Positions 5,239 through 37,200 of a stretch of DNA of 64,000 bases are shown one piece after another (the stretch's first letter is position 1; every line of letters begins with the position of its first letter). This DNA comes from Apteryx mantelli. Taxonomy: Eukaryota > Chordata > Aves > Apterygiformes > Apterygidae. Position numbers and translations under genes: made by a program. The notes under the pieces were generated by a model. It saw only the letters and a list, made by a program, of their open reading frames with translations. It was not told the DNA's origin and did not search any database. Location of the stretch: assembly GCF_036417845.1 (NCBI RefSeq), contig NC_089981.1, positions 24,386,001 through 24,450,000 on the forward strand, in the 5' to 3' direction.

Positions 5239-5336
5239 GGATCTACATCCTGATTGCGGTTGGTGCTGTCATGATGTTTGTGGGGTTCCTGGGATGCTAC
5301 GGCGCTATTCAGGAGTCGCAGTGCCTTCTGGGAACG
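5239..5336 (+). CDS. CD81: CD81 exon 3 (TM2 and inner loop)
   Basis: The acceptor is ctcgcag and the donor ACG|gtaag. The first two bases complete a glycine codon split with exon 2, then 32 codons follow. They encode TM2 ([19 protein letters not shown]) and the conserved inner-loop motif [11 protein letters not shown], whose juxtamembrane cysteines are palmitoylation sites in tetraspanins. The reading frame stays open well into the flanking introns, but the splice signals and homology fix the ends. Confidence 0.96.
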
Positions 5337-8300
5337 GTAAGAGGCACAAAACCTGGTGTCACGGTACCGTCCTTGTCCTTGCTGCAGGCGTTCGAGATGA
5401 ACAGAGCGTGGGAGAAAGCGGATGGGAAGTGGCTCGTGCCTGCGTCTGGCTGTGAGGGGCGATGCAGAGCTGTTTGGTGTCTCTGCCTCCCTGCTGCAGC
5501 TCTGGATGAGCCGGAGCGCGTGCCCCGAGCTCCCGCGCGTGCCTGGCCGCCGGACAGAGGCGGAAGCCAGCAGCGTAGCGGGAGAGGTGCGAATAGCAGG
5601 GTTCCCGGTGATTTGTGCTCTGCGTTGTACGTGCACCCCCCATGGTCTCTTTTTCCGTGGTCTGGCTGTCTTGTCAAGCAGTCACAAAACCCTCCCTCTT
5701 ACCGTATGTCCCCTACCGCTTCCCATGACCCCTCGCTGGAAGTCGGTCTCTGTTCCGAGCTGCCCACGGAGGTTCCAGTTCTTCTAAGGAATCATCTAAT
5801 TTTGATCTGGTTAAACTAGGAAGCAGGAAAGATTTTACACAATATTTTAGTGAGGATGTCAAGGTAAACCCTGGAAAATCCATTACTGAAGTGCTACAGG
5901 CACCCCTGATGGGAGGCAGCAGCTTGGGATTCCCAGCATGCGATGATCTTAACAATTGCACGAACTGCAGCCACACCAAAAGCCTTCGCCACGGGGGTAA
6001 GGGAGACCCATTTGTTCACAGCAAGTTCCCACATGTGGTCCAGCTGTAAGCCAGATTCCAGTCTCTTCTGGCTTTCCCTGTTCCATAACCACTGCCAGGC
6101 AGGGACTGCCAGCCTCGAGGGAGACGTTGGTGAGAAGGGGCGCTCTTGGTGTGGGCTTTGTGCAATACAACCCGTGGGTACTTGCGTTGTCGCCCTTGGA
6201 GCAAGCCTGTTTCTGTGGGGTTTTTTTTGTTTTGTTTTGTTTGTTTTGTTTTTCCCTCTGCCACCTCCTGTAGTGGAGTTGCCTGCAGAACAGCTGCTCC
6301 TCAGTGGAGGAGCACAGCACAGGCATGCAGCAGATGTGTTCACGGGCTCTTCTTAAAGTGTGTCAGTTTTTGGCATGTTGTGCTTGGAAAGGTCAGAAAT
6401 TGCAAAGGCCTCTGAAAAGAAAAAAAAAATAATAATAATAATTAGGAGGGTAAATAAAAAGAAGAAGGGTTGGGGGGACTTCTCAGCACTTGGCTTTTTG
6501 GGGCTGAAAAATTGTTTGTGGTACAGAGTGACCCATGGGCGTAGACTGGATTGGGGGACAGAGAAATGGAGCTTCTCTCTCTGACTCTTGCTCTCACCGT
6601 GAGCAGATTGCTTCACCTCTATGTGCTTCCGTTTCCATATCAGCAATAGGAAAGTGGTGTTTCTGAGCAACTTTTATAAAGCACGTTTGAGCATCAGTGG
6701 GTGAAAGCTGCTGCAAGAGTTTGCCGGTATTACCACTGCTGCTGAGCTGGGAGGAGCCCCTGCACAAATCTGACAGAGGTTGTTGTAGTGAAGGCCTGGC
6801 AGCTTTGGATTATTTATTTATTGATTGCTTTTGGTTAACACAAGCGATTACAGAACCTGAATTACCCTTCATTCCCTCTTGAAGTTGGAAAGAGGATTAG
6901 AAGGGCAGATGGTACAACATACCTGAGGCCTGACAGTGAAACCGGCTGCTTTGGCTAAAATTAGCGGTTCTAGCTGCTGTGCACTACCCATGTCTGTTTG
7001 CACCTCAGCTTGCCAAGAGCAGGCTTGAGACACCTTCTGCTGTCCGCCCTTGCGTTGGGAGGCCAAGGCTCCCACCACGCAGCAAGGACGTTTCTAGGCA
7101 GTGTACTCAACGTGGTGCAGGAAAGCAGTGGCTTTCTGCTGTGACCTCTCTTGCAGCTGGCTGAGGGCGTAAGTATTTACAGGGGAATGGACTTGCTGCA
7201 AAGGAGGAAGCACCAGGACCTTCACAGTAGCCAAATCCTCTGTAGAAGCCCATGTGCCAGCTGAGCAGCAAGATCCAAGCAATGTGGGAGGGAGTCGCTC
7301 AGCCTGCGACAGGAGATTTTCACCCTGGGGCAGATCGAAACGCCTGGCCAGGAGCACAGCAGCGTTCCTGCTGTGTAAAACTGCATCTTTGGTGTGTTGC
7401 AACCAACTAGCAAAACTAAATCCCTGCAAAATTGTATCTCTAAATCTGGAATAAACAAGCTATTCTTCGCTGGAGGGTAACCATTGCAAGAGCGTGCCCT
7501 AGTGCTTAACCAGGAAATTACATAGGCCTCGCACCTGCCGGGTAAGGGTGACATCCTTCCTTGGAGGGAAGTGGGACCCAGTTCCCCAAAGATGTCCATA
7601 GAAAGCCAATGATATACAGGTGTTTAAATGGGAGTTAGTTGCTCTGTGACTGGATAAGGATGTCTGAAGTCCTTTCCTGCAGGAGGTCAGTAGTCCTGTT
7701 TCTGTTTTCTTTTTGTGTCCCTTGCTCTTGCACATGAGAGTCTTCCAGCCCTGGAGGGCTAGAAGTAAAGCCACACAAAGCCAGCTTGCAGCGTAGTCCT
7801 GGAAACTCCCGTTTCTTCTGTTGAAGAAAATGTCTTGAGTGTGCCCAAAACAGAGTCTGCTGAGGAGCCAGGGGCTATCATCCAGCCCTGTATCATGTTC
7901 TTATGTCTTTCCCTGGCTGCATCCACTTCTTTTGCTTCTCTACTTCCATGGCACCTCTTACCAATTTGGGGGGTTTCCCAGAAAGAAATCATTGAGGACA
8001 ATGTTGTCACTGAGGTAATGTGGACTATGTGTGGAGCTCACCTGTCTTTGCTTTCCTACTTGTCTCTGATGTATGAGCTTTAAAGCTTTCCATTTCCAGT
8101 CGAAAAGACTGGCCATCGCAAAATGTTCCCAGGATATGAACAGAAAGATGGAGGAAGGCTTTGGGGTGGCAGAGAGGAGGAGGAGAAGTAGAAGTTTTAT
8201 AATTGCACCAACAGGGTGGGGCTGTGGGAAAACATCAGTATTAGTATTTATGCAAAAAACTGCAGTAGCCTTGCAGGGCTGTGAATGCCAAGAGCGCTGG

Positions 8301-16900: not shown

Positions 16901-19900
16901 TCCTGGAGCAAGTGACACCTGAGAAAATGGTTGTAAGCCTGAGTGGGGAGGATGAGAGTGACCAGTTGGGGGAGAGTGAACTGGCCAGGTCTGAGTTCAA
17001 AGACCACAGCACAAGGTCAAACAGAGCCGCTGACAGCTTAGCTGAATGCTTGGGATTCTCTTTGACTGTGGAGCATGCCACAAAGCAGTGTGTTTAACTT
17101 CCTTCTGCCCCCCCCCTTTTTTTTTAAGAAACAAAAGAAAAGTCAATTTAATAAACGTTTCTCATAGTGTGCATAGTGTGATGAACCACTGCAATCTACA
17201 ACCAGTTAACCTTAACACCAGGACGCTTTGTGAACCAGGCTTCAAGGGCACGGGTTTAGCAGCCTCCGGGACAGGGGAGGCGGGCAGGCTGGGGGGGCAT
17301 CCGCAGCGGCGCCGAGGGGAGGCAGACAGTGCTCGTCAGCAGTGGTGGCTGCTGCAGTTGTGCCCCCCTGGAGGGGCTGGGCGGGCACAGCAGTGGGGGA
17401 GCTAATATGTATTGCAAAATTTGGTGACCATGTTGAAATTTAGGTGGGGGGGCCTGTGGTGGCAATACTGTGCGTGCCCAAAGGGCTTCTCCTAAAGTGA
17501 TGGAGAACAGCCCCAAATGCCCTCTGCTGCCACTGTTGCTGCCACCGCCTGCCCCTCCACACCGTCGGGGAGAGCCCTGCTGAGAGGAGAGCCAGGGAGG
17601 AGGCCTAGCGCTGTGATCCCACAACTGCCTGCCTTTCTTTGCCCTGTCTGGGACTTTTCACTGCTTTTGTAGCATGGGTGTCCAGAGGCGGCCCCTAGCC
17701 TTCACCGCTGCTGGGATGGAGAGGGAGGGAGCGCTGGGCAAGGGAGAGCCATGTTCAGCTGCCTCAGAGGAAAGGCAAAAAGCCCTGCTCCCGATGGCTG
17801 CGCCTGTGCTAAGAGATCATGCCCATCTGTTGTTCTTTCGCTTGTTTACCTGAATGTTAATGGAGTCGGACATAATGACTTCTGGAAAGAAAAAAAGTGA
17901 TATTTAAAAACAATAAAAAGAAACAAAACAAAAACCCTTGCTAGTGGATTTTTAATGATGTGTTGTCAGAGCTTGTTTCTTTCCAATGCGAACAGATTTC
18001 TGCCACGTCTTCCAAGAGAACAGTGTTGCTGGTTCTTGTATTTGGACAAAACTTAGGCTTTAGGGAATGCAGTCCTTAGATGACCCTTGAGGTGGTTTCC
18101 CATGAATAAGATGTTCTTTGCTTCCTGCCTTAAAACATTTGGGTTGTGGTGCTGTGTTATTGCTCCAGATGGAGATACAATTATTCCTGCCTCTTTGGCA
18201 CTAGGATTAGCCTGATGTGAGTCACTGTCAGACTCAGGCTGGCATTCAACAGGGAGACAAATGATAGTGGAAACAAACCGGCAAAGCACAGTGCATGTTT
18301 GGCATCCGAGCTGCATGTGGGAACAGCAGTGCCTTGGGATGTTAGCCTCAAAGCCCAGCTGGGTTCTTAAACCCCCCCTGGCTAAATGTGATCCCCTCTG
18401 TTGGCACCTCAGGTCTGAATATTAACACTGATGTGTTCAAAACTGACGAGTCTTATGCAGTGCTCCATCTGAGATGCTGAGAGAGGAATCAGCAAACCAG
18501 GCCCCTTTAAGGTGCTGTTAAGCAAAGACACCGGTTATTCTTGGAAAATAGCAGCCCTGCTGTGTAGGAGCATGTGAGGCCGCCTGGATAAAGCCACTGT
18601 GAAGGGAAGGGGTGGGTGGAAAACTTGCAGCCTGCTTGTTCTCATATTACACTGACAGCAACGACTTGCTTTTTTTTTTTTTTTTTCTTTTTAACTTTCT
18701 TCTTTGGAGGCCTAGAGAGCTTAGAAAGGAAGGAGCAGTCGCTAGAGACATTGCTGTAAACTTTTGACTCCTACGAATATTTTTGTGCATCTTTTTTCTG
18801 TCAAAGAGCAGTTTTCACAGAAAACGTAAGTATGAATTTTTCTAAACTACAGCAAGTTGGACTTTTTTCAGTGAAATTCTTTCTCCCTTCCCCAGCTGGT
18901 TTAAAAAAAAAAAACTGTCTAAACTGTTTCTCTTTTTAATTAGAAGTTTGGGGGTTATTTTTGCTTTGGCCAGCTCTATTTCATAAGCTGATTCAAGACT
19001 GTTTTAAAAGCAGCAATGTGCCTAATTATTTCCTGCTAAGACAGGTGGGACCAACAGGAAAGGTATAAATTGCTGTGTCCCTTCCTTAAGAGGTTGTTTA
19101 AGCTCTAATCAGGTCTCACAACATTCCCACAGAGGGAAAACGGAGCCAGTCCTCCCATCGGAGAGCTGTTCAAGGCGGAGGTTGCTTTGTAGTAGAAGGG
19201 GGGGCAGCACCCTCCCTGCTGGGCTGCACAATCCCTCTTCCCTCGCTGCCAGCTCCACTTCCAAGGGTGGGTGGTCAAGAGCCTGTTACACAGTGGCTGT
19301 GCCCAAATTCCTGCTCTGCATCGTTGTTTCCTTTGCTGGACATGGCTGTGTGGCTCTTCCATTTGCAGGAGAGGAGGAGTTTCAGTTCCAGGGCAAGCTC
19401 AAGCTGAGGGAAACGTGACGGTGCAGGCATCAGGACGTTGGCTCTGTGGTGCGATTGAAGGTCTGAGGCTCACAGGGTCGGTCTCGCTGAAGATGCAGCC
19501 AGCAGTCTATCCCCTGCCAGTCACCAGCTCGCATTGCACCTTGGTGAAGGTTCAAGCTAGGTGAGACTTCACTGGAGGCTGTCTCAGCAGGGCATGAGCT
19601 CTGGCATCCAGCTGATGGATGCCCATGTGTTAGCAACACTGTTAAAACACATCCATGCTAGCAGTCTTAGCAGGGTGGAGACAAAATGCCAAAGCTGTGA
19701 GGGTGCAGGGAGGTAGCTTCTAAAGCAGAAAGAAAAAAAAACCTTGGCTTAGCTTCAGCATTGAACAAAGGCAGCTTGGAGAGTCCAAAAAAAGAAATCT
19801 GCTTGCCTGTGAAGCTGTTGTTGGGGCTGGGTGAGCTGCTGACAATCAAGGAGGCCTTTAGTAAAAAGCAGTCCTTTCAACAAGCTTGTTTGCTGGCAGA

Positions 19901-22900
19901 GCCACAGCAGGGCTGGGAACCGGCAGACGAGGTGAGTGGGAACGCAGCCCCGAGCAAGGAAACATCTGCCCTCAGTGAATGCTGAAAGGGAGATGCAAAC
20001 GCAATCAACTACATGACTAGGTCTGCAGTAAGTGGTAAAGACACAGGCTAGAAACCAAAAATCTCCAAGCACAAAGCTGCACAGTTTAGTAAAAGGTGTG
20101 ATGTTAATCCAAATCCAATATATTTTTGCCTGACCACTCTACCACTTTCAACCCAGGGAGCATCAGCTTACCTGGCACAGGGCATACCCTAAGCGGGAGG
20201 GTCCATATGCAAAGACGCACTGTTTCCATGCGAATGCTTTGGCCAGCCTCTGGCACTTGGTGTGTATGAAGCAGGCAGCTGGATGCTTTCACTTCAGAGA
20301 CCAAGGAACTTGGGCAAAAAGAAAACACCACCTAGCAGGCTGTGTTAATGTTTTCACACTTGCAGAAGTGTTACAGAGGGTACTTTTGCAGCTGGGCATG
20401 AGAATGCAGACTGACTGGTGTTTCCCCACTGGTTTTAGATGACCCAGCTCAAATGCCAGTGGTTGCAAGTAACATTTCTAATTAGAGGCTAATTACACTT
20501 TTTTTTTTTTAAGTGTTTCTTGGCCCTGCGTTTCTAGGGCATTAACTCATGTTAGAACACGGCTTTGCTGAGTACCAGTGAGGTGGTGTTAAGCCAGGCA
20601 CGACTGCTCATGTATAATACTGTAGTGCCTGCAGGCTGGGAGTAAGCTGGGGAGAGTCCTGCCAGCAAGGTTTAGTGGTGTTAAAGGCAAAGCTCGGTGT
20701 TGACTACAAAGCCACCTTAGTTAATGAGGTGTCTACAGGTCATGTTCTAACAGGAGGTTTGGGGAGTTTTAGGGTTTTGTGTTTTTTAATAAATACTAAC
20801 TTCAAGGCACTTGACTGGTTCAAACAATCTCTTTCAACCCTTCTCAACTGCTGTTAATATTAAATGCACTGGGGCCAATGATAGAAAAGAAAAAAAAGAG
20901 GCAAGAATTAGAAGGCGTTTTAGTAAAAATATTCTGTGGCTAAATCAAAATGAACAGAGCTCCCCAACTATTTTTTGTTTGTTTTTTAAATTTCAAATAA
21001 TTGCATAGCACATTAATTTGGTCTTGAACGACTTCAGCTTCCCCCAATCAAATGTGATGTTTGGCATCTCCTACACATACAGTGTCTCTAACAGAGCAAG
21101 GGATGCAGGTTCTCAGCACAGGTCCTCTCCAGGTCAGCAATAACATTGTTATTTGAAAGATCAGGTTGATGGAAGGTGGGGTTCGGAGCTTCCTGGTCTG
21201 CCCGCATTAAGACTAACTCCACGGTAACTACTTTCACGTAGTTACCTTAGGAAAAAAAAAAAAGCACCAAGATGGATAAACAGCACTGAAATAAATCAAA
21301 ACTGCTTTTAGGTGAGCCAAGTCCAAATGAAAGTGCAAAGCAAAACCAGTGAGCAAAGCTCTGTGTAGACAAGAGTGTCAAACCTCGAGCTCCTGGAAAC
21401 TCACCCAACAGGATTTCATGGCCTCTTGTAGACTTTCCTTCCTGCAAATAGGAGAAGGCAACTCTGATTATTTCCGTCAGCCATTACCTTTACCCCATTC
21501 TGCCTTAGTAACTGCATCCTCCCAGCACAGGAGAATATGGTCTTTGCAACTGTGCTATTATTGATTCTGGCTACAGGAAAACACTCCTTTCCCTCCCTGC
21601 TTCCCTTCAGGATCTACAGCATCGGTTGAGCACAGCCAGACCAGACTCACTTCCATCCCCCTTCCAGATGCATGACGAGGCTTCAAAAATGCATCTGCTT
21701 GCTCTGTCTGGCTTGCAGGATCTTAGTGGCTCTTTAGTGTCTGACAGATACTGTGCCACTGTCGCTTCCTCGTCCCCCACTGCAGAAACCTATAGCAACT
21801 GCTGCAGTCCCACGACGAGGTGCTTCCCCCATTCCCGGGAAACTGCCTGCCGCTTTCCAGGAGCCATGAGGAGAGGGGCAGGAGCTCCCTGCCGATGTCT
21901 ACCCTGGCCTCCAAGAGCAGAAGCAGCAGGAGCCTTCAGTGCGTAGACCAGGGCAGAAGCCTGCCACTTGAGTAGCAGAAACTGTTACCAGATGGGTGCC
22001 AAATGACGGATGTATTGGCAAGAAAGGAGCGTGAAGCTCCCGAAAGCAGGGCTGCGATGGGTACGCATTCACACACGCCACCCCCACGTGCAGGGACGCG
22101 CTGGTTTCCTGCAGGCGCACGGGGCCGTCTCCCCCAGGAAGCCCAGGCTGTGGCGGAGCCAGCCCTTTGCAGCCTGCGCGCAGGACACGCCGCGCTCGTT
22201 CGGATGATTTCCTGCACCGCAGCTTAGAGCCACGGTCCAACCCCCCGCTCCTCTTCAAGCCACCTTAGTTCATATTGGCTAGGGGAAAACACTTTACCAT
22301 CTGTTCATCTTCAGGGTCTGACTCATTATTTTTATTTCAGCTGTCGCCAAGCAATAGCAAAAAAACCCCAACACACCAGTGTATCCATCACTACAAACTG
22401 CCTTGTCCTCGGTCACCAGAAAAAGCAGCTCACCCCCAGTTCTCTGCAGTGTGTGGTACTAATCTTCTGCAAAAAGGCAGGAAGGAGAAAATGGGTACAG
22501 CCAGTTCTGAAGGTGACCTTGGCCACCAACAGACATAACGTCCAGGCAAAAACTGAGCAGGGACTAAGCCTAGCAATATCAGGGGCCTCCAGAAATCCAG
22601 GAATGGGGCTTGTCCCTGAAGGCACCCAGATTCATGGGTGATGGAGAGAGTGGAGATGGTGTAGCCCTTTTCCGCCCCTTTGAGCCGCTAACCTAGCATT
22701 AAAACCAGGTTTTAAAGAGTTTCATCCATTTGGACCAGACCCCGTTTGCCTCCACCCTTACAAAAATGGGACACGCCACTGCCTACTCCTCATCCTTTCC
22801 TCTCCTCCTCCTTTTTACTCTCAGAGATTCACTCCTGGTACGTCCCTGACGCTACACAGCGTTACACAGCAGGGGCAGACTTCACCCGTGTTTTATTCTT

Positions 22901-24100
22901 ATTTCCCCTTTCAAATGGCTTCCTTTGCCTGTTTACTACCCTCCCCATATCTGCTCCTGCTGATCTACCAGAGGACTCTTTTCCTCTCTTCCTCCCTCCA
23001 GCCAGAAAACCATTTTAATGTCTGTGACCACACACTATATATATATGTATATATTTTTCAAAAAAGATCACCAAATGGGGAAACACCTCCAGAACTGTTG
23101 ATTTAAAACTGCAGCACAGCTCCAGCCAGACGAAAGACATTTTGTGCTAACCTTGTTATTACTGCCAAATGTATTCCAAACACAGCTCACATCTCATAAA
23201 TTACTCATCTCATAAATTACTGTAGTTAACAACACTCCAGAAGGCAAAAGTATATATATATATTTAAAAACTGACAATGCAAATGGCTGCAGTTTATATT
23301 ACAGATGACTCACAGGCCCCTCTTGAAGGGCTTCAGTTAAGTCTTTTAGGACATAGACATAAACTTACCTTTTGGCAAAGAAACTGAGATGAAACAGGGT
23401 TCAGATGCCGTGGAGAAAAAGGTGCCTCCAAAATCCGATCTGGTGGGACTACGCAACAGTTCCATCTCTTGTTGCAAAATGATGGTATAAACAAGGAGCC
23501 TTGCTTATCTACAAGGCCTGGAGTAAGTCCTATGTTTCTCTTAATCCTTCAGCACTGGGTGACCTGATTAAGTAAAGGCCCGACCTTTAGCAGTTCAGAC
23601 CCTTTGTAGGCATTAACTTAATTCCATTTAATGACGAAGTGCAATCATGCAAGGCACATGCAAACACCGACTTCCCTGGGGAAGGGGTGGAGGAAAAAAA
23701 AAAGAAAAACCTGCAAACTTCTGTATGACATGCTGGTGGATCAACTCAAAGAACAAACTTTCCTCCCTTTTTTCCCCTGAACATATTGTAAATGAGCTAA
23801 ATATTAAAGCCACCTGAGAAGTTTATTTCCACTGGAAATTTAAACTTTTCACTGAACGAGGGGAAAAAATGAAGCCTCTTTGGCCAAAACCAGTAAAACA
23901 TTTTCAGAAAGAATTCCACTTTTCCAAGCACATGTATTATGTTCTTCTGGGACAGAAAATGGAAACTTTTCCTTTTTTTGGCTGAACACTGGTTTTATGC
24001 CCCTAGTGACTTGGGGTTTTCTGGTTAAAAAATAAATACAAACTTAAAAAAAAAAAAGGCAAGCATTTCCTCTGCCATTTTCACCGTGGCCAAACGCCTA
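13991..24100. other. CD81-TSSC4 intergenic region, no gene recognised
   Basis: About 10 kb with no reading frame showing homology or spliced structure on either strand. The first 4 kb may be an extended CD81 3' UTR. It contains T runs near 18669-18686, short TA repeats near 23037-23056 and 23249-23264, and a 16-bp tandem duplication near 23189-23221. A noncoding RNA cannot be excluded. Confidence 0.55.
17912..17917 (+). terminator. CD81: possible distal poly(A) signal of CD81
   Basis: An AATAAA in an A-rich context lies about 4.1 kb after the CD81 stop. The sequence between has no reading frame of note and is partly AU-rich, so a long alternative 3' UTR is possible. RNA evidence is lacking here. 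Confidence 0.3.
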
Positions 24101-24385
24101 CTTTTCTGATGAGAAAAAAGGCCCTGCTGGACGTGTTTTTGCCAGGCGGCTGCCAGGGACGCGCGGGAGGCGGCGGCGGCGCCCCTTGGGGGGCCCCGAG
24201 AGGCCGGCTCGCCGCGGGGCCCTTAGGCAGCGGGCTCGGCGCCTGCCGGGCAGGCGGGGGCAGGCAGGACCTCCTCGTCCCGCACACCACGACGGCGGGA
24301 CCATCGCTGTCCGGGCCGCAGGACAGGGGCCCGGCAGCCCCCACACCGCCTCCCCCTGCGGCACCCCCGTTTCCTCGCAGGCTGC

Positions 24386-24396
24386 AAAATGGCGGA
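24386..24396 (+). promoter_or_regulatory. YY1-like site
   Basis: The sequence AAAATGGCGGA matches the YY1 core (AAnATGGCGGC) in all but the last base. It lies in the CpG island upstream of the TSSC4 exon. YY1 sites of this type often sit near transcription starts. Confidence 0.6.
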
Positions 24397-24416
24397 GGCA
24401 GCGGCGCCGCTCGTGG

Positions 24417-24440
24417 TGCATCCTGGGAGCCGTAGTCCCG
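24417..24440 (-). promoter_or_regulatory. ZNF143/Staf-like element 1
   Basis: On the minus strand this reads ACTACGGCTCCCAGGATGCA, close to the ZNF143 (SBS) consensus ACTACAnnTCCCAGnATGC. It is the first of three such elements within 190 bp. Confidence 0.75.
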
Positions 24441-24504
24441 CCGTGCCGCGTTCGGCGGCGGTTCCCAGCTCTCAAAATGTCCCCCATGGGGGACAAGAGG
24501 TCGA

Positions 24505-24524
24505 ACTACAACTCCCAGGATGCA
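24505..24524 (+). promoter_or_regulatory. ZNF143/Staf-like element 2
   Basis: ACTACAACTCCCAGGATGCA is a near-perfect ZNF143 (SBS) element on the plus strand, in the direction of TSSC4. It is the best match of the three. Confidence 0.85.
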
Positions 24525-24580
24525 AAGGGGCGCGGCGGGGAGCTGCGTCCCTCCCTCTTCCCGCCCTTTCCGCGTCGCTT

Positions 24581-24605
24581 TGCCTGCTGGGGCTTGTAGT
24601 CCCAG
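24581..24605 (-). promoter_or_regulatory. ZNF143/Staf-like element 3
   Basis: On the minus strand this reads ACTACAAGCCCCAGCAGGCA, a good ZNF143-type match with a weaker 3' part. It lies about 290 bp before the exon 1 ATG. Confidence 0.65.
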
Positions 24606-24896
24606 ATCCCCTCGCCGCGGCGCCGCCGCCGCCGCCAGCGGGGACTCAGTGTCCCAGCGGGCTCCGCGCGGGCAGAACGCGGAAGGACGGCGGACGGTTG
24701 CTGTGAGGAGGCTCCGGGCCGTGTGGGGCCGGGGTAGGGCGCTGCGGGCCCGGGGGGGCGGCCGGGGCCGTTGGGAGAGGCCGGTGGGGGCCTGCCCCCC
24801 CCCGCGGCGAGGGGGGCTGCCGGCCACGGCGTGGGGTGATGGCGTCTGTGTTCTCCCGCGGCTGCAGGGGGACCGGCCTGCGTGAGCGGGAGCAGC

Positions 24897-24973
24897 ATGG
24901 AGGAGGCCGAGGGGGCCCTTCGCGCCCAGGGAGCCGACGGGCTGCGCCGGGCTCGCGCCGCCCTGACCGACCC
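24897..24973 (+). other. TSSC4: TSSC4 5' exon 1 (3' part), donor at 24974
   Basis: The exon ends GACCC|gtgagt. Its 5' end is unknown. A possible extra 5' UTR intron (donor at 24703, TTGCT|gtgagg; acceptor after 24867, ggctgcag) would place the exon start at 24868. It is noncoding with respect to TSSC4 itself. Confidence 0.6.
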
Positions 24974-26896
24974 GTGAGTCCGCCTGCGCCGCACTAGCGC
25001 TGTTAAGGTTAAAGCGTTTCCTTAGGAGCGGGATTTCTCCTTTCTGTGTCCCTGCCCGCAGGTAAGGGGTGCCGAGCTTCCCTGCCTGCGACAAACGCTT
25101 GCAGTGCCCCCGCAAGCAGTCCTTGCAGCCAGTTGTGCCTTTTACTGTCTCTTCGGGGTTGTAGCCATTCCTTTCACCTGCTATAAAACTGAACTGGAAG
25201 GGCGCAGGGTTTTTCTGCTGATTGTTTCCTGTGTAGTGGTTAAAATAGGGGTCATGTTTTCAAAAGCAGTCATCAGCTCCCCTTGTCAAAGACTGCTAGG
25301 CTGCACAAGCAACACAGCACTCGGTCTGTTGAATTCTCCAGAAGTTTCTCTGTATTTTAATGCCTAATGCAAATCTGGCCCGAACTGTGAATATGGCCTT
25401 TCTTTGAAAACACGGCCCTGGGCCGTCCCATGTCCGTGCGACGCGGCCCTGGGCCGTCCTTGGTCTCTTTTTTTTCCCTGCAGCATTTAGTGCTCGTAAT
25501 GCATAAGCATTTGTTTGATATTTTTCTTGGCCATATTTAATATAGTTCACTTCTTGATGGTTTACTGCATGTGACAATTACAGTGTTATTTTTTAAAGGG
25601 CTCTCTGCTGTTCTACAGACTCTAAGCATGGCAATGTGAATGTAGAGACTGAGTAAATGTAGTGGCGCCAGCCTTATTAGGGTTTTTTTTTTTGCCAAAA
25701 ATCCAGAAATATCTGCAGACTTTTGTATTAGCATGAGCTTATGTCAGATTTAGAAATCAGTTCTGCAGTTTTGGATGATTCAGAGAGAAGGAATTATTTT
25801 TAAAGCTCATTCTAAAACTACATTTCCAATATTGTAATGGAAATGTTTGTTTTTTAGGGTGGAAGCGTTTGTATCTTTGGTGGCTTTAACTGACCCTCAG
25901 GAGGGGAAGCTGACTCAGTCTCAAGAGAAAGTGAGTGACTAACAGACTTTCCATGTCTGTTACTGCACTGTTTGAAAAGATCCTATAATTATGTAGTTGA
26001 GCTTATTCTAATAATATACTATAACTATCTCCTTATTTCATGTTTTTGTGAGCTGAACTGAGGTGCATGTTCACCGACTCCACTTCTTACTGCTCAGCAA
26101 GTGGTAGTGTGAACATCAACCATCTTCGGTTATGGAGAGTTCCCTTCCATCGGATGACAGAGCGAATCTGGTATTCCAGCCTGTACTGGAACTCAGGCTT
26201 CGGTTTCACAGTTTGTTTTTACTGACTGAAGGGCTGGCTCTTGGTGACCCTCGGTTGCAGGCTCCCCTTGCTTCCACTGTGTTAGCACAAGCAAGGCATG
26301 TGTGGTTAGTTTTCCTAATCTGGTTGGACTGATTCCTTGAGCTAGCTCATCACACGATCCCAGAAACCTAGTAATGACATGACAGAGCTTCAAGCCAGGG
26401 AAGGAACGAAGCCTGTACTTTATATCAGCAAAGAAAAAATGAAACTATAGCCTTGATATCTTATAAACTTCTCTGCCACTGACCTCGGTCAGTGATAGTG
26501 TGCTTTGTAACAAGCAGTATAATGAATACGCTGATTATTGACACAAGACATAGTACTAACGCAGCAAAGGAAAATAGTGGCCAAAGAAAGTGAGAGATTA
26601 GGGTGTATTTCTGTTGATTTATACAGTATGGTAAACATAGGGTGTAGTCTGGACAAGTCATTGCTGGAAGAAGTGTATAAGACAGTTACGTGGATTTGCT
26701 CAAAAACTTGATGCTGATAATTGGTCCTGCTGTAACCATTATTTACATGGCACAGAATAACAGTCATATGTATGGTACTTGTATCACAGTTTAATTTTTG
26801 AACTCTTTTGCATTCTAGGCATTAAACTCATTGGGTATTTGGAAAACCATATCTGCTGCTGTTCCTGGACCTACATCAAAGACTTCACTGGAGTGA
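24897..26896 (+). CDS. 75-codon upstream reading frame spliced through TSSC4 5' exons (unrecognised small protein)
   Basis: A frame opens at ATG 24897 in strong context (agcagcATGG, A at -3 and G at +4). It runs 24897-24973, joins 25858-25930 and then 26819-26896, where TGA ends it 10 nt before the TSSC4 ATG. The splice donors gtgagt and acceptors ttttttag and cattctag keep this frame open, while the other two frames of the middle exon hit stops. The predicted 75-residue product begins MEEAEGALRAQG, is Ala/Arg/Glu-rich at the start and has no membrane segment or known domain that I recognise. The peptide ALTDP occurs near residues 22-26 and again at 35-39. It could be a regulatory uORF, a genuine small protein on a bicistronic mRNA, or chance. 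I lean to a real uORF. Confidence 0.5.
25412..25459. repeat. duplicated 15-16 bp palindrome in TSSC4 intron 1
   Basis: ACGGCCCTGGGCCGT at 25412-25426 is a perfect inverted repeat around one T. The core CGGCCCTGGGCCGTCC occurs at 25413-25428 and again at 25444-25459, while the flanks differ. Confidence 0.8.
25858..25930 (+). other. TSSC4: TSSC4 5' exon 2 (73 bp)
   Basis: Acceptor gtttttttag and donor AAA|gtgagt frame a 73-bp exon between the CpG island and the main coding exon. It continues the upstream reading frame from exon 1 and lies before the TSSC4 ATG. Confidence 0.6.
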
Positions 26897-26906
26897 TAGC
26901 CGAAAG

Positions 26907-27929
26907 ATGGGAGATCAAGATGCAGGTGAACCCTTTCTGGGTATAGTGGCTGGTGACTACGAAGGAGTTCTGCCCTCTGACACAGTGTCACTCAGCGATT
27001 CCGATTCCGATGACTTTGGATTAGCGGATGAAGCTGAAGTTGATACAATATCTCCTGAGGAGCCATCTGTAGATGATGGGGGTTGCAGATCAGGGGAGAC
27101 CTCTGACTCTTCAAACAGCAGTTGTAAATCTCCCATCCAGCCATTCCACTTGAGAGGCATGAGTTCTACCTTCTCTCTCCGTAGCCAGAGCATTTTTGAT
27201 TGCCTGGAAGAGGCAGTCAAACTGTCCGTGCCCTCAATGCCTGAAGATAATGTTGTTGATGGCAGGTTTAAACGTCCTTTGCCTCCAACTACTGTTTCAA
27301 GTAACATGGTTCCAGAAAGCCCTGGAAAGCAAACCAAACCAGTGCAGGCTCCCAAAATTTCTGCTGCAGTCCCTGACTATGTGGCACACCCAGAGCGCTG
27401 GACCAAGTATAGCCTAGATGGCGTTTCAGAGTCTAGTGACAAGACTAACAGGGCAGTGGCCATGGAATTTCTAGAGGGTTTGAAGAAAAGAGGAGAGGAA
27501 CAAAGCTTGGCTGCCCAAGATAGCTATACCCCATACTTCAACCAGGACCCCTCCAGCTGTGGCGCTGGAAGGATTGTCTTCACCAAACCAACTAAAAGGA
27601 GTGTTGATGGACTGGAAAAGAAAATGTCAGCAGGAGAGGATGATAAGAAACACACAAAACCAGATCTGAGAGGAAAATCTCCTAAGACTGATGACTTGAG
27701 AGAGGAGGATAAGGTAGAGTTGGAGCATTTAGATGGTGGAAGTGGGAAGGCAACAGAGGAGGAGGGGTGCCTGATGATGGGGGACCTAAATAGAGAAGGT
27801 AAACTTAGTGCAAGGTTTAGTGATGCAGATGAAGAGCCATTGGTGGAAACGGTTGGATTCCATTGCAGTAAGAAGAGGAACAGGAAAAATTTCCGACCTA
27901 AAGTAGACCATGAAGAGGAAGAGTCCTGA
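26907..27929 (+). CDS. TSSC4: TSSC4, U5 snRNP assembly factor (complete, single coding exon)
   Basis: TSSC4 is a nuclear protein shown in human cells to bind U5 snRNP and promote its assembly into the tri-snRNP. The 340-residue frame (human about 329) starts at ATG 26907 in context cgaaagATGG and ends TGA 27927-27929. Conserved blocks, in order, are PSDTVSLSDSDSD (residues 23-35), QPFHLRGMSSTF (78-89) continuing to IFDCLE, VPDYVAHPERWTKYSL (155-170), FNQDPSSCGAGRIVFTKP (211-228) and VETVGFHCSKKR (313-324). The rest is low-complexity, acidic and probably disordered, as in mammals. All coding sequence sits in one exon beginning 26819, after two small 5' exons. A 75-codon upstream frame ends 10 nt before this start. 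Identity is secure; the mechanism is inferred from the human protein. Confidence 0.97.
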   Translation: MGDQDAGEPFLGIVAGDYEGVLPSDTVSLSDSDSDDFGLADEAEVDTISPEEPSVDDGGCRSGETSDSSNSSCKSPIQPFHLRGMSSTFSLRSQSIFDCLEEAVKLSVPSMPEDNVVDGRFKRPLPPTTVSSNMVPESPGKQTKPVQAPKISAAVPDYVAHPERWTKYSLDGVSESSDKTNRAVAMEFLEGLKKRGEEQSLAAQDSYTPYFNQDPSSCGAGRIVFTKPTKRSVDGLEKKMSAGEDDKKHTKPDLRGKSPKTDDLREEDKVELEHLDGGSGKATEEEGCLMMGDLNREGKLSARFSDADEEPLVETVGFHCSKKRNRKNFRPKVDHEEEES

Positions 27930-28438
27930 AGGGTGGAGCAAAACTAGAGACATCCAAGGACTTGTATTGTTCTAGGAGATCACCTTTGGATATGTTTGCT
28001 TTTTCTTAGCCCATTTTTTTTGTCAGGAAAACAGGTGATAGCTTTTTATCTAACAGTTTGCATCACAGCCTCCAAGTCCACTTTATACTGTTAGAAATTA
28101 AGCTCCCCAAAGTTCATTCCAGACTTTTTGTTCTTAACTCTGGGCAAAGTAGTGTGCTTTGTTTACTTGAACAGCTCTCTGGGGCCTGTTCTGGAGCTAT
28201 GGAAGTCCTGGGCACCAAAGAAAAAAATGTTAGCTTAAAGGCTGCAAGGAGGATAACGAAAGAAAGAAAGTCATCCTACTCGGCCACAAATTCGAACTGT
28301 CCCCTAGTCCTGTAGACTTCTGGAACAAATGTCATGAGCTCATTAAGTCAAGATTTTTAAAGAATGAAAAAAACCCCCCAAAATCCTAGTCTTCCACTGG
28401 ATTTGATTTCTTCTGGCCCTGTCCTAGGAAGGAAAACC

Positions 28439-28441
<3 letters not shown>

Positions 28442-28467
<26 letters not shown>
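28442..28467 (+). repeat. 26-base T run in TSSC4 3' UTR
   Basis: Uninterrupted T homopolymer. No SINE body is seen beside it. Confidence 0.9.
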
Positions 28468-28472
<5 letters not shown>

Positions 28473-28920
28473 GTCCTTCCCCCATTGCCATTGGGAGTGA
28501 AAGCACAGTGGTGCCCAGTCATGAGTTTCCAGGGTACAGGTGGGAACTGGCAAATTGAATTTTTTTTTAAGGTGGTCTTACTATTTAACTTATCTAGTAG
28601 TGTTATATGACAAAGATATAAAAAAACCACAATCTCTCCTGGAGACAGGAACAACTTTGGAAACATCCTAGTGAAGACAGACTCAGGATGGCTTCGGCCA
28701 AGTCTCACCACATTGAGTAGGTTAGAATTTGCAGCAACTTTGGAATCAGTTGGGCAACAACTTTTCCTCTCAGTGGTATGGTATGGTGTGATGATTTTTG
28801 GCCTGTATATTTGTATATCTGTTCCAGGTGACACTGCTTACACATTGATTCCTTGTGTGGATTTGAATGAAATGAGGTACTTGTACCAGAAGTGAATACT
28901 TTTTTTGTTCCCTGGGTGTC

Positions 28921-28926
28921 AATAAA
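28921..28926 (+). terminator. TSSC4: TSSC4 poly(A) signal
   Basis: Canonical AATAAA about 1 kb after the stop, followed by a T/G-rich element. It is the first good signal downstream. Confidence 0.75.
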
Positions 28927-28945
28927 CTTTCAGTTGTAGCTTGAT

Positions 28946-31900
28946 TTCTGCATCTCTTTGAACCATATTGATATGCATGCAGCTATAGGAAGTTTTAACA
29001 AATATTCAGTTCATTGTACTTGAAAACTGTCTCAAAAATCTTCTAGAATGTTACTCTTAACTTATCCTCTGGTAACTTTTCCCTCAACTTCTTAAATTTG
29101 AGATTTTGAAATTGACATTTTTAACACTGAGATGATTTTACAATGTACAAAGAAAATAGCTTCACTGAATCACCTGCATAATGAACATCAAATGTAGTAG
29201 CTTTTCCCCACATAATGTTAATAAATGGTTAAGATTTTTTTTCTTTTATAAATGAGGTTGAAAGATTAAATTCTTTGAAAGGTTACATTATTTGAAACTC
29301 AGATTAATTCAGGATTCAGTTAGGACTGACATATTTTTTGCCAGTATACTGAATTAACCAGCCCCAGTATTAATACCTGTAATACCATAATGAAAGACTA
29401 CTTCTTTGGAATTTGATTTCTCTTTTAGGCTGCACTTGCTCAAATTCCTGAGGGTATTTGGGGAAGTAATTTTCTCCGTGGGGATGTCAGCATCTGATCA
29501 GAAACGGACTTGCAGGCCGGAATCGTCTGGGGTTTTGTGTTTGAACAGGTGCATTGTCTATCAGCAGAAAATAATGTAAAATGAGCCTGAGTGATGTTGC
29601 TCCATCTTTTGAAATTTATTTTTTAATTTTAAAAACAGTATGTGTGATCATGAGACTATGTTTCCACACACATTAATTAATGGGCCATTCCTAAATACAT
29701 CAGTTGTAGCAACTTATATGTATGGGACATACCAGAATTCCCAAAGAGATCATTTTGATTTCCAGTGGATAATGAGCGAGCTGATCAGAGTAAAAATAGT
29801 AGCTGTTTTGGAAGGGAAGCAATGGTGAAGAGTGTGTGTGCTGGTTGTAAGATATGTATTACTTCCTAAATGTAGCTCACTGCAAATTTACTCGTTCTGT
29901 AACTTCTCCTTCCTAAGGTGAAGAACAGCATAGAATGGTACCAAAATTCTGTCATTGTTAATAGGACCACAGAGGTCTGTGGCACAGCTGAACAAATACT
30001 TCTTTTATGAAGACATCATAAAAAGATTAATTTCTATTAATGGGACACTCATGTCTGAAAGGCATTTTGATCAGATCTGACTTTTTTTTCCCCCCATCTC
30101 TGTATTGACATATCTGGTAATGGAGAGAGCAAGTTTTAGTGCAGTCTTGTGTTGCATAGGAGTGGTGTTATGATATGCATGAGCAAAACAATTTCAGTTG
30201 AAGCTTAGTGTAAGAAAGACCATAATCCAGTGTTTTCCCCCTTCCAACACTATTTGTGCTAGTCCAAAGAAATTTCCCTATAAAGGATGGTAGTAATATT
30301 CATTTTATTTGTGTATCTTCTCAAAATTATAATAAAGCCAACCAGCTTTTGTATGCTAATAAGGACATGCTAGTTACAGTAATACAGAAAATGATAAACA
30401 ATCCAAATTCCTAGTTTTTAGGAAAACTCTTGCTACACATTCTTGTTTGAAAATCTCTGTTTAAGTGATTTTGCTGAGTCTTTGAAAGAGAAAAGTAGAA
30501 TGAAATCAGAAAACTGCATAAGATGTAGTTGTGCTGTTTCATGCATTGTGATACATATATAGCAAAGTCTCCTTTAATAGCAGCAAGCTGACAGCAGATA
30601 TGATCTGGCATTAAAACAAAAAGGCAAGCAACACAGGCCGGACCGTGGGAGGGTCACGTGCTGTGCATTTGGAAATTGAGAGCAAGCCACCAAAGGCCTG
30701 AGGACCATGTGGTGAGAGTCCAGTTTCTGGGGATGTGTGAAGAAGCCTCATTAAGGAACAGCCATAAAAGGAATACAGTACAGAAGCCAAAATGGGAAGA
30801 AAAGACGGTAGTGCAGTCATTTGAGGATTATGAGAACTCTAGGAACTGTATGAATTGTAATAGTTCAGAATCCCAGGCCCTTTCCAGTGGAAACTATTTC
30901 CTGAAATCCTTTTTAAAGAACCCAGAACATGAGTGTGCTTTCTTGGCCAAAGGAGGTGACATACATTTTTTAATGAGGAAATGATCGCTTTTCATCAGGG
31001 AAATTCCCTTGGATAGAAAACAAAAATGTGTGAATTGGTGATGGAGTTTGATTGAGGGTACAGTATTTGGAGAAATAAAGGCACATAGTGTTTAGAATAT
31101 AAGGTGGTAACCTCACTCTGGAGGGGGAAGTTGTTAGTGGGATTTGTGGAAGGGAGTTTTGCAGAAAGGACCAACCAGTGTAGGAGTAGGAGAGAAGAAA
31201 GGCAAAAAGAAATTGGAGTATGAAGACTGAGAAGTCCTCAGTAGTGTCAAACATTAACAGTTCTTGACATTAAGCTGAAGATATGTCTCCATCGAGGACT
31301 TTGAGAGTTGGGTCTTTGACCTTCATGAGACTAGGATTTTAGTTCGACAGAAATTCAGTAGAACAAAAAGCTTAATCTGGGAAAAATGAGAACATTTAAT
31401 TATCAATGTACATGATGTCAGTCTCAGACTGATCTGCACGCTGTTCTCTTTCACCTCTTTCTGGCAAAGGCACTTCAACATTGGCATTCATCAAACCTAA
31501 CAGGATTGTAAAAGCCATGTGTTTGTTAAAAGTGCTAGGACAAAGGGCACAAAATAGTAATTACTTAGGAAACTTAAAAATGATGAAAATAATCCACAAC
31601 AAGAAGTCGACAGTTGTTCTAATTTCCATTTTTTCAGTGAAGTCAATAAAACAGGTTTCTTTATTTTTCAGCTATTTAAGTTTCTGATTATCATGCAGTT
31701 ACAGTATTAAAATATCTGGAGAGCATATGCTGCAGGAAGGTTTTTCTTACTGGAATTTTTATAATGGAGCAATTTACCTATGTGTACATAAGTATGTTTA
31801 CTTAAGCTTCTAACATAATTAAGTTTGGGAGTCAAATTTGAGGTTAATGCTATCTTCTCAGACTAGATACTGCAAATTCTGTTGTAGGACAAAGATGCAA

Positions 31901-34087
31901 TTAGGATCAACTACCTGATTGTGTTTATCAGTGATCTTTACTTTTCCCTATAAACTAAACACTGCTACCTCCTTTGGTTATTTACAGAATATAATAGTGT
32001 GCTATGCATGCTGAGTTAGGATAAAATAAGCTGTCTTTCTAGCTTGGCTTTGCTATGACTAAGGTTTACAGTAAAAATTTTATGTCTGTTTTATGCCTGT
32101 GTTCATATTTCCTCTTATGTGGCTGGGAAAATGTCAAAATATTTGTGTTTATATTATATCTCTGTGATTTGCTATAGTAAACTGACATGGCTCATTCCAC
32201 CCTCCCCCCACCCCCAACCTCAGCACTGAAATCATTGCAAATGGACAGGGTAAAATGGACATATTTCATGATACTACCTTTGCAGACCTCAGTCTCTAAT
32301 AATGCTTTGAGCTTGCCCTGTCAAAGCTTTGCTGAGTTTTCAGCAACTTCTTTTTCCCATATAGTACCTATTTGTTCAGTTTACAGTTTTTGGAGGACTT
32401 TTTGTGTGATGGATATTAGATAGATATTGGAACAAATCATTAAGAAAAATATTCCCAGTATTGAGTCAGATACCCTGCAGTGGCTGAGTAGTAGTCTTTC
32501 TGTCTCTAATGTTTAAACCTCAACTAATGGAGCTTTGGGACCTGGGGGAAGATTTTTAACTGATATAAATAGTTGCAGCTCCAAAGGCATATGAACTGTG
32601 TTGATTAAGTGAAAGTAGGAGGCTTGCTCAATTTTTTATTATTATTATCCTTATTAAATAAAAGTTTTGATAGTAGTTGGTGCCTATCTCATTGACTCAA
32701 GAACTCATCAAGAAACAACCTTCTCAAGAAACCCCATGGCATATAGATTCTTGTTTACATGCTTAAAGTTAGGTGAGATCTTTCTAACCCACAATAAGCA
32801 ACGGTCCTTTCCCCAAAGCTTTTCTTAAATATATTTTGCAAAAGCTTTTTTCTTTTTTCCAGTTCTGAAGTATGAATACTGTTTCTTATTTATATTTCCA
32901 TTACTTCTAGGTATACCCCTCTATATCATCTTACATGATTCGTTTTCAATCTTTTTTTCTTGCCTTTTTTTTAAAAACTAAATCATTTAGCTGAGTTATT
33001 TAGCTTTTCTGTGATTATTTTCAATACTTACATTTATAGTTTGGAGGTGGTTGATTGCACAAGAGGTTATTTTTGGTTAAAACATCTGCCATTGAAGAGA
33101 TAACAGCTGTACAGTAGCAAATCTACAAAATAAGTAGTTGTTTCTACATCAGTTCATTTTTGTAGTATTTTAAATTATCCATTCTTAAACTTGCAAGAAA
33201 GATAATCTAGGCAGTAGCTTGATACAGCATCAGGAATAACACGTATGATATTTTCTTTTAAGAAATAGTGGGACAATCTGTATTAAATATCTTCTTTTTT
33301 TGTGAGTATATTACATTATCTCTAGCTGGCACAAACTTAAGGCATTTCTTGTGTATTCCTGTTGGACTTGTATTTGATGGCAACATTGTTCATTGAATAG
33401 TATGGCTTTTCTCAGGAAGCCATAAAATGCATTAAGAAGGGAAGGGGAAACTGCAATGGGAGCGTTAAGATAAGCAATTTTCAGCAAGGTTAGAATTCTA
33501 CCGGAGAGTTCTAGGAACAAAGAAAACAATAACAGCTGTACATAGCATATGGTAAGGCTGAGCGTTTTCATGCTGTTTAACAAATGTTTGTTTATATTCC
33601 ATGGGTTTGTCATCAAAAGCTCAAGATGGGATTTCCTTCTATTATTTATGTTGCACATTTGTATGGTAGACACTTCCCTTTGAAATCTTGTATCTGGTAT
33701 CCAAGAAAATCAGAAAATTTGGTATCCAAGAAAACTAGAAAATCCAAGAAAGTCTAGGTCATGTCAGATTAGACAGAATATGGGTAGTTTTGAAACTGTA
33801 ATTTTTAAGAAATAAAAGGTTAGGTGAAGGAAAAGAATGGAGGGGAAAGATCAAGCATTCACCTCCAGAAAGAGCCACACAGAAAGAAATAGACAGTGTT
33901 CAAGCAGACTAGCAAAGGGGGCAAGAAATGCTCTCTTACCCTTTCTCCTTTCTTATAGGAGATCGGAAAAGTTTCTTTTCATCATTATCACCAGAGATAA
34001 AGCAATAAGGAAACTGAAGCCATAATACAGATCCATTTTTCCTTCCCTTTATCCTTAAAGCACTCAATAGTGTCAGCCAAACCAGCC
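28946..34087. other. TSSC4-TRPM5 convergent intergenic region
   Basis: About 5 kb, AT-rich, between the 3' ends of two convergent genes. The terminal TRPM5 exon and its 3' UTR probably lie within it but are not recognised. A minus-strand AATAAA is seen near 32634 and another near 30304. Imperfect 20-bp repeats occur near 33697-33750. No other gene is seen. Confidence 0.5.
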
Positions 34088-34123
34088 TTAAATACTACCA
34101 TCACTGTTTAAAAATAGTCTAGG
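34088..34123 (-). CDS. TRPM5: candidate terminal TRPM5 exon (very uncertain)
   Basis: Minus-strand acceptor tttactctgcag at 34124-34125 would leave a 71-bp intron and add 11 residues (PRLFLNSDGSI) before TAA in phase 0. This does not resemble the mammalian tail, which continues with NYC...LLSS. Alternatives are readthrough of the 34195 donor to a stop near 34108, or a more distant exon. Confidence 0.15.
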   Translation of the reverse strand, partial: PRLFLNSDGSI

Positions 34124-34194
34124 CTGCAGAGTAAATGAAAGAAACATGGTGAAAGTTCAAAGCTGATATAAATGCTTATAAAACTATTACTTAC

Positions 34195-34267
34195 CTGGGA
34201 TTCTATAACTTTAAATCGCTTTTCTTGTTCTTTCAATCCACTAAAATATTTAGATAAACTATCCACC
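34195..34267 (-). CDS. TRPM5: TRPM5 exon, C-terminal coiled coil (last recognised exon)
   Basis: The exon is 73 bp with acceptor tttacacag and donor CAG|gtaagt. It encodes [20 protein letters not shown] and IESQ, the coiled coil that in human reads GLREQEKRIKCLESQ. A further exon is expected after ESQ. Confidence 0.93.
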
Positions 34268-37200
34268 CTGTGTAAACAGAACAGATGCAGTGAGCAAAAG
34301 GGAAAATCTTTAAAAGAAACCCTAGAACATGAAAACTGCATAACTTACTAGAATCATGACCCACAGCTGGCAGTTTTGCACTGCTGAGACATCACGGAGT
34401 CATGCACCCCTTGCCCAGGGAATTGTTATAAGCTCGCACAGATGAGAGAGCCCCTGTTCAGCTTGCGGTGTGGGCCACCTAGCCCCAGCTGCTGTGGACA
34501 TCAAGGACCAGAGAGAGGAGCAACAGATGAAGCGCTCGCTCTCTCTCTCTTTTCTCTTTCTCTGTCTCTCTCTCTCTTTTTTTTTCTCTCTTTCTCTCCA
34601 GCCACTCATGTCCCATCTATGCCAAATATAAATTGATCCCAGTGGGAGAACTGAGGCCACAGTATTTGCTCCATCAAGCCAGAGGTATAAACCACTAAAA
34701 AAATTATTCAAGGTTTTATTTTTGGAAACTGGTTTGATGTTCAAATCCCTTTCTCCATGCAGTCCAAAGGGACTGTGTATGGTACCCACATATGGTGCCT
34801 CCAAATCATTGCATCCCTCCCTGTCCATGCACTTTCTGCATCCTTCACCTATTCTCCCATCAACTCCTTTTTTCCTAGCACCTGATTCCCCATAGGGTCC
34901 TCAAATCCCTCTCTGCTTTGTCCTAACCACAGCTGTTTCAAAATTTCCCTCTAATTGGTTATATTCCATTCAGACCTCTGTAAAAAGGCTGCTGTTGGAT
35001 GTATCTAATGGTTTGTGGGGTTGTTTCAATTCAAAGTTCAAAGAATCACTTTCTGAAGGTTTCATAAGATTGCAAATACACAGGCAGGTCTGCTGCCATC
35101 CAAGAACTAAGGTAAAAAGCCACAGGTTTTGTGGTGTTTATCTGAACCTTTTCTATTCTCTTGCTGGCTCTGCTATAGCTGAGGTACTGTGAAGCTAGAC
35201 TAGTTCTTATTTACTTTTCCCCTCCAAGCAGTAACTTCATCTTCAATTTACCATCTATAAAGCTAGAGAAAATGTCATTGTGTCCTCTCCTTGGAAACAA
35301 TTATACATATATTTATTGTTTAGTCTCACAGCTATGGAGCTCTCACTTATTCTCAATGCCAAAATGCTGAAGTTTGTCAGTGACTTGCCTATGGGAATAA
35401 AGTTAAAACCAATACAATAATTCTAAATTACTATGAATTAAGAGTCTATGTAGATTTGAGGAAAGAGTAATTTCAAAGTATGTACTCAAGTAGGCTGGTC
35501 TGGACTCCAACTATTCTATGAATTAGAAAGGTGAAAGCTTGTTTTGAAAGACTGTGCACAATGGAAACATCAGACAGCACAGGAACATTTGTATTTCTTT
35601 ATGTCAGAACTCAAATTTCCATTGAACTTTCTTATTTTAATAACTCTTTCACACCCATTGTCTCTGTATTTGAAGACAGTTTTATCATAAGAGGAAACAC
35701 CTGAGATAGGTATTAAAAGCTTCTTTAAAGAAGGCTTTGCCATCTAGCTTTCAATATTGACTTGGATGTTTCAGTTTTCTGGCCCATATCTACCTTGTCT
35801 TTCATTTAAAGAGGTAAACCTGTGAGTAATACTTTAGCACTTTTGTTCTTCAGAATGCTAGACCAGTTTAACTGATATTCCTAGAGGGGAGATATTTTAC
35901 AGAAGTACTTAAATGGAGACTCAGTTAATTGGTTTATGCCAAGACCACAATTTTAGAGCCAATATCAGGAATTTCTTGAAAAAAGTTGTAGTCTTATGCC
36001 ATTAAGTCATAAACAGTTGTTCTTCTGCATCTGTGACCTGGGGGTAATTCAGAAGATCATAAACATTCATGCAAAAGTTTAAGCCTCTTTCTGGTTTGGA
36101 AAGGATAGTTTAGTCGGATTTTGATCAATGTTTTGTTTCCAGGTATGTTATAATTCCTCTAAGAGATGGAAGTACATGTGCTGCAGTAGAGCAAAAGAGC
36201 TATTCTTCCACCATTTCTTCATAAATGTGATTTTCATTTGAGCTTGACGAGCTTTCCAGCAGGTTTGGCTGGAGCTAACAGGTCTGTAATTGTGTATACT
36301 TCAAGAATGCCGGAAACTCTCCCAGTATTGTAGTGATGCTATCTTCTCACATTTTTCATGGAATGTGTATTTCCTAACTGCATTCTAGTTAGACTCTTCA
36401 TATAAGCTTTACAAGCACCTGAATGTTTATGTCATTCAAACCTGAAGACTTGCAAGGTTCACTTAATGTGAGTCAGAAATGTTGAAAATTAACATACTTA
36501 TTAGCTGTGACCTTCAGCCTTTCTTCATTGCTTTCTTTCCTCTCTTGTTCCAAGTTCACAAGATAATTTTCCTTTTGCACCAGCTCCCATGTTATGATTT
36601 TTTGATCTAGGCTATCTGGAAGATCTCTTTCTGTAAGAAAAGAAAGATATTAAGAATCATATTTTTCTCCCTTTTCCTCTATGCTGGTTTGAATAATGGG
36701 AGGCTGCTATGCTAAAGAAAAATTAAATAGTCTTGCTTTGCCATTGCAGGAGTGTCAGGTTATGAAAATTTAGTGTAAAAACAAGTATTTTCTACAGTTT
36801 TTTTCCTGTAATGGAATTCAAGAGACCTTATTGCAGTTGGGTATGAGTCCTGAGTTTTCTAAAGAACTGCCCAGACCTATTTCAGTGATTCAATTTAAGC
36901 TTATTTAGAAACTTACTGAATTTCTTATATATTGTAGACCCAAAGTATCTGTCTTTATTAGGCCAGTTATAAATAGGAAGTAAAAACTGTGAATAAATCC
37001 CTTCCCCTTAAAGTCTCATTTTAGAAGAAAAACTGTTGGCCTGGCTAACAAGCAGAGCTCAATTTCACAGAGGTATTTTAAATGTAACATACTAACCTTG
37101 TACCTCCCTAAAGCTTGGTGAAAGGATACACTTGCTGCCTGCTCCCAAACCCACTGAATCTAGGACCTGACCAGCCAGGTTCTTGCTTTCTTGAAAAAAA

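Follow-up and report, generated by a model that had tools for sequence, protein, structure and literature searches.

TSSC4 of Apteryx mantelli probably has an ordinary upstream open reading frame in its leader, with a 75-codon frame as a minor splice form

The window analysed here is a 64,000-nucleotide (nt) stretch of the Apteryx mantelli genome (assembly GCF_036417845.1, contig NC_089981.1, positions 24,386,001 to 24,450,000 of the forward strand), which carries the coding sequence of TSSC4 at 26907..27929 on the + strand (all positions are those of the window) as a single exon of 340 codons, preceded by an upstream ATG (uATG) at 24897. While a first-pass annotation had read the transcript as bicistronic, with a 75-codon frame spliced through three exons ahead of TSSC4, our analysis makes it reasonably probable that TSSC4 has an ordinary leader with a cis-acting upstream open reading frame (uORF), and that the 75-codon frame belongs to a minor splice form. 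Transcription would begin in a CpG island close to ZNF143-type sites, the majority of transcripts would be spliced from a strong donor at 25061, and ATG 24897 would then open a uORF of 26 codons whose stop lies 245 nt ahead of TSSC4. TSSC4 itself would be reached by resumed or leaky scanning, aided by the lack of further ATGs, while a minority of transcripts spliced from a donor at 24973 would hold the 75-codon frame and yield little TSSC4. The frame would thus act in cis on the level of TSSC4, and its peptide would have no selected role. The sequence, the frames, the contexts of the ATGs and the splice-site scores are directly established.

The identity of the downstream gene was borne out by a match to the TSSC4 Pfam domain PF15264 (E 2.7e-26, 92.7 bits against a cut-off of 27) and by an alignment to the solved TSSC4 chain 7px3_T (E 2.3e-56 across query residues 6-337), which we take to be the human protein. 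On these matches we regard the downstream frame as TSSC4 with certainty, and since the alignment to 7px3_T begins at residue 6 in both proteins, a start at 26907 fits. Upstream of it, the arrangement described in the first-pass annotation was reproduced by direct reading and translation. ATG 24897, flanked by A at -3 and G at +4, has the start context looked for in a uORF, and the 75-codon frame runs on the + strand through 24897..24973 (25 codons and 2 nt, ending the proposed exon 1), through the 73 nt of exon 2 (25858..25930), in which one frame is open and the two others hold stops, and through the start of exon 3 (26819..26896), which contributes the final 25 codons and the TGA at 26894-26896, directly followed by a TAG. 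Between this TGA and the TSSC4 ATG at 26907 lie 10 nt.

The two introns that join these parts are predicted, and here the earlier proposal held only in part. Splice sites were scored with a vertebrate weight matrix, and those proposed for exon 2 (acceptor 9.78 bits, donor 8.98 bits) and exon 3 (acceptor 8.92 bits) are good, whereas the first donor, at 24973 (CCC/GTGAGT), reaches 5.94 bits and is outscored by its neighbour at 25061 (CAG/GTAAGG, 11.41 bits). The two donors lie 88 nt apart, and the difference corresponds to an approximately 44-fold preference for 25061 in the matrix. Of all 3578 GTs that the + strand of the window contains, donor 25061 ranks second, while 141 score at least as high as donor 24973. 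Use of donor 25061 would extend exon 1 by the 88 nt from 24974 to 25061 (+ strand), which contain no ATG. Moreover, the observed/expected ratio of CpG drops from 0.97 (24900-25062) to 0.39 (25062-25300), which is compatible with donor 25061 as the end of exon 1. Branch-point-like motifs of the form yTnAy are absent from the 43 nt 5' of the exon 2 acceptor and from the sequence 5' of 25062, and a TTAAT lies at about 26791, 5' of the exon 3 acceptor; the motif is too degenerate for this to decide anything.

The choice of donor determines what ATG 24897 encodes. When donor 24973 is unused, the frame closes at the TGA at 24975-24977, which sits within the bypassed donor itself, giving a uORF of 26 codons (24897..24977, + strand), a spacer of 245 nt and no further ATG between the uATG and TSSC4. 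Skipping of exon 2 gives 27 codons with donor 24973 or 26 codons with donor 25061, and retention of intron 2 together with donor 24973 gives 53 codons. In all five leader forms that we built, each made to begin at ATG 24897, a stop precedes the TSSC4 ATG, but the bicistronic layout with a spacing of 10 nt, correct as arithmetic for the donor-24973 form, appears in one of the five, namely with donor 24973 and both splices, and not in the others. The outcomes listed earlier, which were strong repression of TSSC4, a conserved microprotein or skipping of the frame by transcripts starting downstream, left out the short-uORF splice form that we now favour. Reinitiation depends on uORF length and spacing (PMC4705651), upstream frames of more than 55 codons are predicted to prevent it, as cited in the same source, and delayed reinitiation has been linked to small uORFs of less than 50 codons (PMC10193022). 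By both sources, the 26-codon form should therefore permit translation of TSSC4 and the 75-codon form largely not, leaky scanning aside. As an observation apart, which is not used as evidence, RNA folding of the leader predicts that a stable, GC-rich structure covers the uATG.

Several points weigh against the reading of an ordinary uORF leader with a minor long form. First, the long frame crosses two introns by way of the sole open phase of exon 2, and the probability that exons 2 and 3 are open in phase, the junctions being given, is 0.067 by first-order Markov resampling of both exons and 0.105 among GC-matched stretches of the window assumed to be non-coding (introns 1 and 2, 17700-24000 and 28500-37000, in which hidden exons are possible), in line with the earlier estimate of about one in ten. 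Second, with a human codon table applied to bird DNA, the 49 codons of exons 2 and 3 score 0.06 bits per codon, which is no worse than the 49-codon windows of TSSC4 itself (mean -0.003, standard deviation 0.155). Third, the splice sites of exons 2 and 3 are good, and donor 24973 is usable, because 22% of real donors simulated from the matrix score no higher than its 5.94 bits. Finally, the uORF stop of the donor-25061 form ends 84 nt before an exon junction, so that the 55-nt rule for nonsense-mediated decay (NMD), quoted in PMC3951408, could expose the 26-codon form to NMD. Immunity to NMD is expected for the 75-codon form, whose stop lies within the exon of TSSC4, probably the last. We searched 27900-31000 for the end of this exon and found the first AATAAA 3' of the TSSC4 stop at 28921..28926 (+ strand; the next is at 29220), and the end region of the last exon is likely near 28921. 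If exon 3 is the last exon, an NMD-immune layout fits the donor-24973 form; it does not fit the donor-25061 form.

A rival reading is a truly bicistronic mRNA, in which the 75-codon frame would encode a conserved microprotein and TSSC4 would be translated by leaky scanning, much as in SNURF-SNRPN, a reading that we judge unlikely. Beyond the three-exon frame with its good start context, it can draw on the absence of any ATG across the 161 nt of exons 2 and 3 ahead of TSSC4 (chance 0.062) and on the NMD-immune layout, a screening feature of PMC3951408. The open frame and the codon score are each matched by roughly one in ten chance cases: 9.7% of 4000 stop-free, GC-matched controls (mean -0.096, standard deviation 0.13 bits per codon) equal or exceed the codon score of exons 2 and 3, which leaves it indistinct from non-coding sequence. 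For exon 1, with its 25 codons, 13.6% of the 403 overlapping windows without stops taken from the same CpG island reach its score. Given the mean and spread of the windows of TSSC4 itself, this codon measure barely separates coding from non-coding sequence. In simulated leaders that keep exon 1 (n=40000), 1.4% had a frame of at least 75 codons with its stop ahead of the TSSC4 ATG; the stop fell within the exon 3 leader in 25.9% (this 1.4% included) and earlier in 68.8%, and 5.3% had no stop ahead of the TSSC4 ATG. Openness and codon scores are mild hints and not proof, and the frame was chosen after inspection.

Searches for relatives of the peptide likewise lend the bicistronic mRNA no support, in collections that, the genome of the species itself excepted, hold hardly any vertebrates. 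The 75-residue peptide had no match in the PDB at E up to 10, and none of its 171 pattern matches in viral contigs or 594 in prokaryote genomes was confirmed. Two Pfam matches, to HrpJ and DUF883, were discarded as chance (both E 0.1, well under the cut-offs), and a common origin of the peptide and TSSC4 was rejected as well, the best local match spanning 6 residues with E 0.31. Within the genome searched, which comprises 1.504 Gb in 408 contigs and is rather big for a bird, the peptide gave three matches, its own three exons, and none of the candidates scored was a second copy. TSSC4 protein was also compared with that genome, where only the window gene matched among the six candidates scored (E up to 1); no retrocopy therefore reveals the junctions. 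Against viral contigs and prokaryote genomes it gave one and 43 pattern matches, respectively, none of which was confirmed. A scan of the region for tandem and inverted repeats found none bearing on the 75-codon frame. In the literature, TSSC4 was not found paired with the terms uORF, upstream open reading frame, microprotein or ribosome profiling, and no upstream frame is mentioned in the titles and abstract openings of TSSC4 papers among the matches listed. Additionally, two human screens speak against a microprotein here, TSSC4 being absent from Table 3 of PMC3951408, and the main text of PMC13303939 making no mention of it.

The bicistronic mRNA is weakened, too, by its dependence on the weak donor 24973 in the presence of the stronger donor 25061, and by an earlier ATG that overlaps the frame; the stronger donor and this ATG were both missed in the first-pass annotation. 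This ATG, at 24839 (G at -3, G at +4), opens a different frame on the + strand that runs for 52 codons to a TAG at 24994-24996 with donor 25061 (24839..24996) or, with donor 24973, for 56 codons that reach their end in exon 2, and with either donor it overlaps the frame of ATG 24897. If transcription begins 5' of 24839 and this ATG is not spliced out with an intron, ATG 24897 is not the first ATG of the mRNA.

The region further upstream bears on whether the frame is in the mRNA at all. Three motifs of what we take to be the ZNF143/THAP11-type (SBS) site lie at 24418-24436 (- strand), 24505-24523 (+) and 24582-24600 (-), with 2, 0 and 3 mismatches, respectively; at up to three mismatches a mean of 0.10 is expected in the window, and none of 100 shuffles held three. 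The interval 24418..24600 is thus a probable promoter region of TSSC4, judged by its motifs, and four more ATGs at 24389-24520 would then probably lie 5' of the transcription start. It is quite improbable, in our estimation, that transcripts instead begin 3' of 24897 or bypass it by splicing, as from a donor at 24733, leaving the frame outside the mRNA. A candidate small intron at 24734-24867 does have a GT following position 24733 (5.48 bits) as well as an AG preceding 24868 (5.81 bits), although both sites are weak; the SBS motifs exceed chance and lie upstream of the frame, downstream promoters not having been searched for, and the strong donor 25061 would imply an exon around 24897. A TISU element at 24385-24396 was rejected as a candidate, since such matches (at up to two mismatches) number 10 in the window against 8.5 expected. 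A 105-codon frame at 24389-24706, 5' of the likely transcription start, opens at an ATGGCGG motif, presumably YY1-like. On the minus strand, a stop-free stretch of 392 codons (24084-25259) spans the CpG island and is probably a by-product of high GC content; in human, an antisense long non-coding RNA has been described at the 5' end of TSSC4 (PMC3783845).

The competing donors also invite a regulatory interpretation, namely a splice switch controlling translation, in which the choice between 24973 and 25061 would toggle between a TSSC4-blocking, NMD-immune 75-codon uORF and a 26-codon uORF that permits reinitiation; the switch might perhaps even receive feedback from splicing capacity. The two donors, only 88 nt apart, would lead to opposite outcomes in uORF length (75 against 26 codons), in the spacer left ahead of TSSC4 (10 against 245 nt) and in exposure to NMD, and TSSC4 is a component of the U5 small nuclear ribonucleoprotein (snRNP) (PMC8206348). 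However, GT sites at least as strong as donor 24973 are common in the window, as counted above, and such a switch appears distinctly unlikely to us. Very improbable is the combination of both ideas, that in this lineage TSSC4 is both bicistronic, as SNURF-SNRPN is, and equipped with a splice switch of its own. In equally doubtful detail, the weak donor 24973 would yield a 75-residue microprotein and an NMD-immune, TSSC4-poor mRNA, and donor 25061 the 26-codon uORF and more TSSC4.

The surroundings of donor 25061 hold a further feature. At 25034-25067 a pyrimidine-rich run leads to CAG followed by GTAAGG, and the sequence scores 8.3 bits as an acceptor (exon start 25062) besides its 11.41 bits as a donor. 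A pattern for recursive splice sites, allowing up to two mismatches, matched 24 times in the window against 12.3 expected, a count reached by one of 100 shuffles, and the 25061 site is among the four matches with a single mismatch. A recursive splice site at 25061 is speculation from its motif; the 75-codon form could then arise from this combined acceptor and donor (25061/25062) by two-step splicing. Elsewhere in intron 1, at 25410-25459, stand two 19-nt, GC-rich and partly palindromic copies that are 95% alike and start 31 nt apart.

For the wider window, a Pfam scan of six further frames matched two and left four without a match. A tetraspanin exon at 5148-5816 (+ strand; PF00335, E 1.7e-08) presumably belongs to CD81, and a TRPM2-like domain at 56823-57200 (- strand; PF25508, E 1.6e-32) presumably to TRPM5, both labels resting on synteny. 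TSSC4, TRPM5 and the nearby CD81 are covered for human and mouse in PMC3783845. Rfam at gathering thresholds and ARAGORN with bacterial settings gave no match anywhere in the window.

Compared with known systems, the leader resembles ordinary vertebrate uORFs in its upstream ATG of good context, its stop ahead of the main ATG and a peptide for which no homologue was found. The 75-codon version differs from them in being longer than usual and in crossing two introns, whereas the 26-codon version is unremarkable. Among genes with paired frames the nearest parallel, by analogy, is SNURF-SNRPN, in which SNURF takes up 71 codons within the first three exons. In each, an upstream frame of comparable length sits in the gene for an snRNP protein, and the NMD-immune layout would be shared by the donor-24973 form if its exon 3 is the last, but the putative microprotein frame of TSSC4 closes within the same exon that carries the TSSC4 start. 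Human uORFs average 51.5 nt (PMC3951408), SNURF-SNRPN is named as bicistronic (PMC4705651, PMC3951408), and the SNURF stop lies 45 nt 5' of an exon junction (PMC3951408). The microprotein frames of SLC35A4 (STREMI), MIEF1 (MIURF) and ASNSD1 (ASDURF) are likewise found in leaders, ahead of a longer coding sequence, and have passed filters of ribosome footprints and purifying selection (PMC13303939); the TSSC4 microprotein is a putative one.

If the 75-codon frame were translated and conserved, TSSC4 would be a further snRNP gene, beside SNURF-SNRPN, that shares its mRNA with a microprotein, and if the bicistronic reading with a splice switch were true, a U5 snRNP assembly factor would tune itself via splice choice. 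If the 26-codon form prevails, which is likelier, the leader holds an ordinary uORF, through which the U5 snRNP assembly factor may be tuned.

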